From Elusimicrobia bacterium HGW-Elusimicrobia-3 (GTDB lineage: Bacteria; Elusimicrobiota; Elusimicrobia; Elusimicrobiales; UBA9959): a stretch of 64,000 nucleotides of DNA. The notes below the pieces were generated by a model. It saw only the letters and a list, made by a program, of their open reading frames with translations, was not told the DNA's origin and ran no database searches. Positions within the stretch are counted from its first letter, which is position 1, and every line of letters begins with the position of its first letter. Shown here in pieces: positions 35,414 through 37,195 of the stretch. The stretch covers positions 1-64,000 of the forward strand of contig PHAL01000001.1 in NCBI GenBank assembly GCA_002840355.1, read 5' to 3'. The translations under genes were made by a program, and so were the position numbers.

Positions 35414-36106
35414 ATGAAACACGGGGTTTTCGGGATCCTTTCTATAGTATTCTTAGCCGCCTGCGCGCCGCAGCGCCAGGCCGCGCGCCCCGACGGCAAC
35501 GCCGCGGCGCCGCTGCGGATAACAGCCGAAGCCCCGCAGACGCCGCAGCAGGAGGCCCTGCTGGAACAGAGCCTCTTGCAGAACGCGCGCGACCAGAAGC
35601 ATAAACTCAATTATAAAATACAGCCCGGCGACCTGATAGAGATTACCGTCTATAAAGAAGCCGACATGAACCGCACCGCCCGCATCAGCGGCAACGGCAC
35701 CATCACCTTCCCGCTGGCCGGCGTGCTGAAGCTCTCCGAGCTGGCCGTCCCCGAGGCCGAAAGCCTGCTCGCCGAGCGGCTCTCCGAATTCCTGGTCAAG
35801 CCGCAGGTCACCGTGCTGATAAAAGAGTACGGCAACAAGCAGGTCTACGTGCTGGGCGAGGTTAAAAAGCCCGGCTCCATACAGATCCCCGCCGAGCGCC
35901 GCCTGACCATACTGGAAGCCATCACCATGGCCGGCGGCTTCACCGAGCTGGCCGCCCAGGACCGCACCAAGGTGCTGCGCGGCGCCGGCGACGCCAGCCG
36001 CAGCATCCAGGTAGAGATCACCCGCATCACCAAGCAGGGCGACAAAACCGCCGACATCTACCTCGAACCCAACGACACCGTCTACGTCCCCCAGAGCTTC
36101 TTCTAG
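35414..36106 (+). CDS. wza: Polysaccharide export lipoprotein (Wza family)
   Basis: Lipobox LAACAP; IQPGDLIEITVYKEADMNRTARISGNGTITFPLAGVLK and VYVLGEVKKPGSIQIP. Confidence 0.92.
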   Translation: MKHGVFGILSIVFLAACAPQRQAARPDGNAAAPLRITAEAPQTPQQEALLEQSLLQNARDQKHKLNYKIQPGDLIEITVYKEADMNRTARISGNGTITFPLAGVLKLSELAVPEAESLLAERLSEFLVKPQVTVLIKEYGNKQVYVLGEVKKPGSIQIPAERRLTILEAITMAGGFTELAAQDRTKVLRGAGDASRSIQVEITRITKQGDKTADIYLEPNDTVYVPQSFF

Positions 36107-36141
36107 CCCGCCATTCCCCGTCGGTTAGGATTGCCTTCTCA

Positions 36142-36170
36142 TTGACAAAAAGGGGGGGCAGCTGTATAAT
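36142..36170 (+). promoter_or_regulatory. Perfect consensus sigma70 promoter
   Basis: TTGACA 36142-36147, 17-nt spacer, TATAAT 36165-36170; no + strand CDS follows before 37196. Confidence 0.8.
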
Positions 36171-36176
36171 ATTCTT

Positions 36177-36280
36177 GAAGAGCGGTAAGCCCGTTGCAGG
36201 TCGTTCCAGGCGTTCCCTTCCATAGTGTGGGCCACAACCTGGACATTTTAGCCTGCACGGCACGCTCTTCATTCTTTTTA
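36177..36280 (+). ncRNA. Candidate structured small RNA, class unassigned
   Basis: Nested complementarity: GAAGAGCG/CGCTCTTC (36177-36184/36263-36270), CCGTTGCAGG/CCTGCACGG (36191-36200/36252-36260), TCCAGG/CCTGGA (36205-36210/36238-36243), then ATTCTTTTTA. Start matches the predicted +1. Confidence 0.6.
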
Positions 36281-36922
36281 TCCGTCAAATATACAATCCA
36301 GCCTGACTTTCGGTTTGAAGACCTCATACCATTCCGTATCTCCACGCTCGTATTTGCGGGAAATTCCCCAAGCGAAAATATCTGCAGCTTGAAGCGGTGC
36401 GCTCTGCTCCGAGGGTATGTGGTAGATTTCGAGTGGCACCCGCGGATTAAGGATGGCCTTGAGTTGTGTTACGATATAGCTGTTGAAACGTTCTATTTCC
36501 AACCTCGATTTGCTGCGGTCGACTGTAATAATCACTCGAACCCCGCTGTTCTCAAACCCGACCTGCTCAAGTGTTAGCCTGGCGATATAGTTGTATATTC
36601 GCTCTTTATCCTCGCTTAAGCGGTCATAGGCGCCGCGTTTGTTCAGCGTGGTAGCGTACAGGGCAAACGGGATCCCTTCGACTTTCCTGTAGAGCGACGT
36701 TTTTACTTCCAGTGTGGTTCTTGCTCCTTTCAGTTCCGGCAGCGTTGCGTTGCGGGCTTTGAGAAGTTTCCGTCGTATAATGCTTTTAACGGCCTTTGTT
36801 AGCGCAAGGTTGTTTTCTACGCCATGGATTGCCAGTACGCAGATGGTAAAATACGCGCTCGGCTTCTTATTGACGAAGTCGAAGCCCAGATCGCCGCTCT
36901 CGTCGAGATAAAGATAAAGCAT
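36278..36922 (-). CDS. DUF3800 domain-containing protein
   Basis: MLYLYLDESGDLGFDF N-terminus and overall layout of the DUF3800 family. Confidence 0.8.
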   Translation of the reverse strand: MLYLYLDESGDLGFDFVNKKPSAYFTICVLAIHGVENNLALTKAVKSIIRRKLLKARNATLPELKGARTTLEVKTSLYRKVEGIPFALYATTLNKRGAYDRLSEDKERIYNYIARLTLEQVGFENSGVRVIITVDRSKSRLEIERFNSYIVTQLKAILNPRVPLEIYHIPSEQSAPLQAADIFAWGISRKYERGDTEWYEVFKPKVRLDCIFDG

Positions 36923-36987
36923 AAGCCCCCTGAAATAGCATAGCAGACCACCCCGACAAGGGTCTGTCGGCTTGCCCTTCGCAACGC

Positions 36988-37016
36988 CGCCTATCGAGGC
37001 GAAGCCTCGATAGGCG
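36988..37016. repeat. Perfect 13-bp palindromic repeat (CGCCTATCGAGGC-type), copy 1
   Basis: CGCCTATCGAGGC-GAA-GCCTCGATAGGCG reads as a perfect stem with a 3-nt loop; 21 nt recur inverted at 62062-62082. Confidence 0.75.
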
Positions 37017-37080
37017 CCGCGCCCGCCCCGCTACCGCAACTCTGTAACCCAAGTCACACCGCCGCGCAGCCCTAAATTGG

Positions 37081-37086
37081 TATAAT
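37081..37086 (+). promoter_or_regulatory. Extended -10 (TGGTATAAT) upstream of the BY-kinase gene
   Basis: TGGTATAAT, TATAAT at 37081-37086. Confidence 0.5.
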
Positions 37087-37195
37087 AAGGATATCAATAG
37101 GGGGTGAGGGCGATAGCCACAGCTATAGCCCCAATATCCCCTTATTCTGCCGCTATTATTTAAAATTAGCCGCCTCCAGAGCCCAAGGACGCCGT

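Follow-up and report, generated by a model that had tools for sequence, protein, structure and literature searches.

The window analysed here is a 64-kb stretch of DNA in which the wza gene ends at position 36106 and the 1089 bp between wza and wzc (36107-37195) hold two convergent genes. On the + strand lies a small RNA gene (36175-36272), preceded by its own sigma70 promoter (36142-36170); on the - strand lies a gene for a 214-amino-acid DUF3800 protein (36278-36922), whose stop codon occupies positions 36278-36280. From its sequence, the locus is a compact two-gene RNA-protein module.

The promoter of the RNA, TTGACA-N17-TATAAT on the + strand, agrees with the consensus at 12 of 12 positions. 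It is the single exact occurrence in the window, and none was found in 100 shuffles. We collected 69 distinct homologues of the RNA from genomes of the same phylum and from GTDB contigs, the named near relatives being Elusimicrobiota. A promoter score of at least 9/12 was obtained for 85% of these homologues, compared to 10% of shuffled upstream sequences. The sigma70-like promoter sits at a near-fixed spacing from the RNA, which sets the +1 at, or a few bases from, the first base of the closing helix (predicted at about 36177 in the window). At the other end, the closing helix is followed by the T-rich tract ATTCTTTTT (36271-36279, + strand), a putative site of intrinsic termination that overlaps the DUF3800 stop codon. 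The homologue set has a mean T fraction of 0.63 in the 14 nt after this helix, compared to 0.40 on the other side. At four loci (L051, L059, L060 and L061), the T-rich stretch is itself followed by a further, separate hairpin of the form CCCC-loop-GGGG and its T-run.

The RNA is predicted to fold into a rod without branches, which its two ends close by pairing with each other. The closing helix P1 pairs GAAGAGCG (36177-36184) with CGCTCTTC (36263-36270) and encloses the helices CCGTTGCAGG/CCTGCACGG and TCCAGG/CCTGGA; the single-sequence fold has an energy of -39.2 kcal/mol (z = -3.8). RNAalifold recovered the rod from the 69-homologue alignment, with changes on both sides in 18 of 20 pairs. 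When the apical hairpin was included, 22 of 25 pairs had changed on both sides and 94.3% of the alignment cells were paired, against 80.7% after shuffling; none of 500 shuffles reached the observed value on any measure, and sliding the partner by one column left a pairing of at most 45.3%. In P1, 98.3% of cells were paired, and each of the five consensus pairs had changed on both sides. P2, whose 5' arms span 36191-36201 (CC/GG plus six pairs with 36251-36256), corresponds to covariation helices 2 and 3. P3 (5' arm 36205-36211, pairing with 36237-36243) is helix 4, with 96.3% of cells paired and changes on both sides in six of its seven pairs. P4 (36216-36231, arms 36216-36221 and 36226-36231) is an imperfect apical hairpin, helix 5, with 84.7% of cells paired. 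The fold of the RNA is thus supported by covariation. Two loops are conserved: an internal loop GUAAG (36185-36189; consensus GRUAAG, alignment columns 13-17) that faces the CA at 36261-36262, and a GUUC run below the apical hairpin. In the former, column 16 is invariant and columns 14, 15 and 17 are conserved in at least 92% of homologues. The most variable unpaired run of the alignment is about 7 nt long. A role as guide RNA was considered and rejected, as no hypervariable segment of the guide type was seen among the homologues.

Most of what the original prediction had read from the letters was borne out, namely the exact promoter, the helix starting at 36177 with its internal helices and following tract, and the position of the RNA in the gap between wza and the convergent DUF3800 gene; the covariation that it had proposed as a check is present in 22 of the 25 pairs. 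Because the promoter is conserved, the fold covaries and the 3' end is T-rich, the existence of an independent gene for a structured, separately promoted small RNA of about 100 nt is strongly supported by the comparison of homologues.

The claim of novelty, in contrast, did not survive the Rfam search that the same prediction had suggested, and for which it had named a strong match as the sign of a known class. In Rfam (release 15), positions 36175-36272 (+) match the family DUF3800-V (RF02964) at 57.0 bits, above the gathering score of 37.4 bits, and over the full length of the model (positions 1-96 of 96). Membership is also indicated by the covarying fold, which includes the window RNA, and by the adjoining DUF3800 gene. 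The window RNA shares the full-length match, the consensus structure and the DUF3800 neighbour with the Rfam family and differs in nothing essential, a few of its helix positions being non-standard pairs in the Rfam alignment. By this profile match, it belongs to an already catalogued class and is not a new one. 6S RNA, SRP RNA and tmRNA, to none of which the RNA had been assigned, had no Rfam match either and were ruled out; the loose likeness to 6S RNA that had been remarked upon is unsupported, with no 6S match up to E = 10. The RNA is present as a single copy in its genome assembly. Related DUF3800 RNA classes in Rfam are DUF3800-IX (RF02968) and DUF3800-VI (RF02915). The DUF3800-IX RNAs of loci L127, L128, L130 and L131 are also convergent with the 3' end of DUF3800 genes, and the DUF3800-VI RNA of L122 is positioned upstream of its gene. 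A shorter, distant relative of the window RNA (L145, 2129-2203, - strand; 32 bits, E = 1.4e-5) is convergent with a more distant DUF3800 gene.

The DUF3800 protein matches PF12686 (E = 6.7e-15), the sole Pfam family found in it. Its AF2 model has a pLDDT of 88, and the best match of this model to the PDB, using Foldseek, was the RNase HII structure 1eke (E = 4.9e-7, probability 1.00, TM 0.52). On the predicted model, the protein is therefore a nuclease candidate with an RNase HII-like RNase H fold. Residues D7, E8 and D135 are invariant among homologues and D181 is near-invariant (at least 90%); given the fold and this conservation, they may act as catalytic acids like those of RNase HII. The likeness is one of fold only: comparison with the RNase HII profile (PF01351) gave a probability of 0.2, a sequence comparison with the PDB returned nothing convincing, and kinship at the sequence level was rejected. 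Synonymous sites are saturated for the window protein, so that dN/dS is not usable. DUF3800 has been described as an RNase H fold with 'catalytic rearrangement' and a link to non-coding RNA (PMC10910872), and type V-A2 and VI-F CRISPR loci are accompanied by DUF3800 nucleases (PMC12669027).

Upstream of the gene lies a putative promoter (TTGTCG ... TGCTATGCTATT; 36932-36970, - strand), and similar sequences precede DUF3800 in most congeners. An inverted repeat, CCGACA-N6-TGTCGG (36953-36970), overlies its -35 element. As a set, the DUF3800 upstream regions contain weak promoters (14%, compared to 5% in the null). The region 36932-36970 with its inverted repeat also resembles the sequence upstream of radC in the same genome (L186, approximately 1540-1600), and the two genes possibly share their control.

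The DUF3800 gene had been taken as a convergent neighbour of the RNA, and so it is; it had also been taken as mere background, and it turned out to be a conserved partner. In a protein-first set of GTDB loci from many phyla, restricted to intact DUF3800-V genes followed by 120 nt or more of sequence, the RNA lies convergently just after the stop codon in 47 of 47 cases, and no gene is without it. The gap between stop codon and RNA is typically 3-9 nt. This obligate linkage is accompanied by parallel divergence: RNA and protein distances are correlated over 50 pairs (Mantel r = 0.66) and in the 16 pairs nearest to the window (r = 0.76), with 0 of 5000 permutations reaching the observed value in either case. 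The reverse search, starting from the RNA, yielded 29 full-length RNAs, of which 19 adjoin an intact gene, 5 a broken one and 5 none. RNAs without an intact gene largely retain the fold and the loops; 91-92% of their pairing is kept, compared to 95% next to intact genes, a non-significant difference (P = 0.057). The orphan RNAs of L007, L011, L014, L019 and L029 (1501-1598) have the promoter and the fold, with no adjoining DUF3800 gene. Those of L007, L019 and L029 face YhcG, Fic/RhuM or AbiEii genes, and no match to PF12686 exists in G120, the genome containing L014 and L029.

The module is carried by an insertion (36107-37195) that is absent in congeners: the wza-wzc distance is 12-72 bp in nine congener loci, compared to 1089 bp here. 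The gap holds an AbiE pair in a sister species (L117), two DUF3800-V modules together with YhcG and ORF6N genes in L151, and three such modules in tandem in L149. In this last locus (G141:C62, 7731-11259), the modules are separated by repeated copies of the wza 3' end (~150 nt); these copies are 95-98% identical to each other and the DUF3800 genes 58-63% identical, so that divergent modules were probably stacked at one site via recombination in wza. We rejected the array as proof of targeted insertion, homologous recombination within wza being sufficient to explain it. A different insertion of ~0.7 kb, nucleotidyltransferase-like by eye, occupies the gap in L098 (G144:C189, 2202-2947). In other phyla, type I restriction genes adjoin the module in six loci by raw count: the module separates hsdM from hsdS in L040, has hsdM as its neighbour in L053 and L076, and hsdS in L059, L060 and L067. 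Type I restriction genes normally make up a small fraction of a genome. The module is also found between the large terminase and portal genes of a 15-kb phage contig (L194, 2995-3743) and on a mobilisable plasmid of Candidatus Tenderia electrophaga; no relatives were found in described phages. An intein appears to be present in the large terminase of L194. In parts of the protein tree, different phyla are intermingled, which agrees with transfer without proving it. Taken from distribution and gene order, the module is horizontally spread.

The reading that we favour, while granting it slightly less than an even chance, is that the RNA binds the nuclease and keeps it inactive, the two forming an RNA-antitoxin/nuclease-toxin pair of a type III-like or abortive-infection kind. 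The constitutive promoter would supply the self-closed 96-nt rod in excess, and the excess RNA would bind the DUF3800 nuclease directly and hold it inactive; should the RNA supply collapse, for example upon transcription shut-off by a phage, the nuclease would be released and would cut RNA or RNA/DNA hybrids. Excess of RNA is expected because its promoter is strong and conserved (85%), as opposed to the weak DUF3800 upstream regions (14%). The asymmetry of loss, in which RNAs occur without an intact gene and never an intact gene without RNA, fits an antitoxin. The missing guide, the expected RNA excess and the unequal loss together favour a restraining RNA over a guide, and the proposal also draws on the linkage, the parallel divergence, the RNase HII-like fold and the type I restriction-modification, AbiE and YhcG-ORF6N contexts.

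The nearest tested precedent, by analogy, is AbiF/RCd22 (abiF RNA, RF03085), where the toxin, an RNase, is neutralised by a structured RNA that binds it directly (PMC12373285). In both systems, a nuclease (shown in one, predicted in the other) is encoded next to a small structured RNA that has a promoter of its own, in a defence-type context. They differ in that AbiF is a HEPN RNase, compared to a predicted RNase H fold here, and in that the abiF RNA is upstream in the same transcript with two motifs, whereas the DUF3800-V RNA is a single convergent rod. The type III toxin-antitoxin systems ToxIN, CptIN and TenpIN likewise use an RNA inhibitor of a nuclease, as proposed here. However, their antitoxin is a tandem repeat upstream in one transcript and their toxin has a ToxN-like fold; the DUF3800-V RNA is without tandem repeats and is not co-transcribed, and the protein has an RNase HII-like fold in the predicted model. 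This convergent layout, with a separate promoter and a single RNA unit, counts against the antitoxin reading. So do the likeness to RNase HII by predicted fold with no profile match and, non-significantly, the slight loss of pairing in orphan and broken-gene RNAs. PrrC resembles the DUF3800-V nuclease as an accessory nuclease gene placed with the hsd genes of a type I restriction locus; it belongs to a different family and is a tRNA anticodon nuclease whose silencer is the restriction enzyme (PMC2610378) and not an RNA.

Being the larger mutational target, the protein gene would be expected to be lost more often in any case, and the unequal loss therefore leaves room for the opposite role: an RNA that the nuclease, as an RNA-dependent effector, cannot do without as activating cofactor or scaffold. 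The 47/47 pairing fits such a role equally well; the RNase H fold also speaks for it, and proteins with a DUF3800 domain are found alongside Cas12a2 and VI-F loci (PMC10910872, PMC12669027). A comparable association, of a compact gene with a non-coding RNA, an RNase H-type fold and horizontal spread, is seen in the OMEGA systems (HEARO/IscB, TnpB). The DUF3800-V RNA, however, has neither the variable guide segment of OMEGA- or Cas-type nucleases nor an open end: its unpaired columns are mostly conserved, the variable run is short and the ends are closed by P1. RNAs also persist without an intact gene, and we regard the cofactor role as rather unlikely, while still a serious contender.

A mainly selfish, homing-type element, in which the ribonucleoprotein aids its own spread, appears improbable. 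The insertion missing in congeners, the modules between phage portal and terminase genes and on a mobilisable plasmid, and the tandem modules split by wza 3' copies would suit it, but insertion sites vary, one site holds divergent modules, ordinary recombination in wza can yield the array, and neither terminal repeats nor a guide were seen. Even less credit is given to an antisense regulator of the DUF3800 mRNA 3' end: the genes are convergent and the T-tract overlaps the stop codon, so that an mRNA produced by read-through would contain the complement of the RNA, but antisense action needs neither a covarying fold nor conserved loops, and the fold is kept in orphan RNAs. A chance hairpin behind a chance promoter, finally, is refuted by the covariation and by the match to Rfam; the conserved promoter and its unique exact match also speak against it.

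If the RNA does restrain the nuclease, an RNase H-fold effector would join those controlled by RNA antitoxins. A broader and more doubtful extension is a previously undescribed class of RNA-controlled immunity in which a convergent, single rod RNA would mimic an A-form substrate and so hold an RNase HII-like nuclease, as a mobile add-on in restriction operons, toxin-antitoxin hotspots, a plasmid and a phage. No function of DUF3800 RNAs was described in the literature searched, which did not include the original motif paper (Weinberg 2017), and the statistics of architecture and the defence contexts may be partly known already. The 47/47 linkage, the RNase HII-like fold with conserved acids, the lack of a guide and the proximity to restriction and toxin-antitoxin genes make it a testable question whether the RNA restrains or activates the nuclease.

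A palindrome, CTATCGAGGC-GAA-GCCTCGATAG, is present at 36991-37013 of the window. Ten sites with at most one mismatch occur in the genome, compared to none for the reversed control, and the palindrome is also found beside the DUF3800 modules of L037, L039 and L046.
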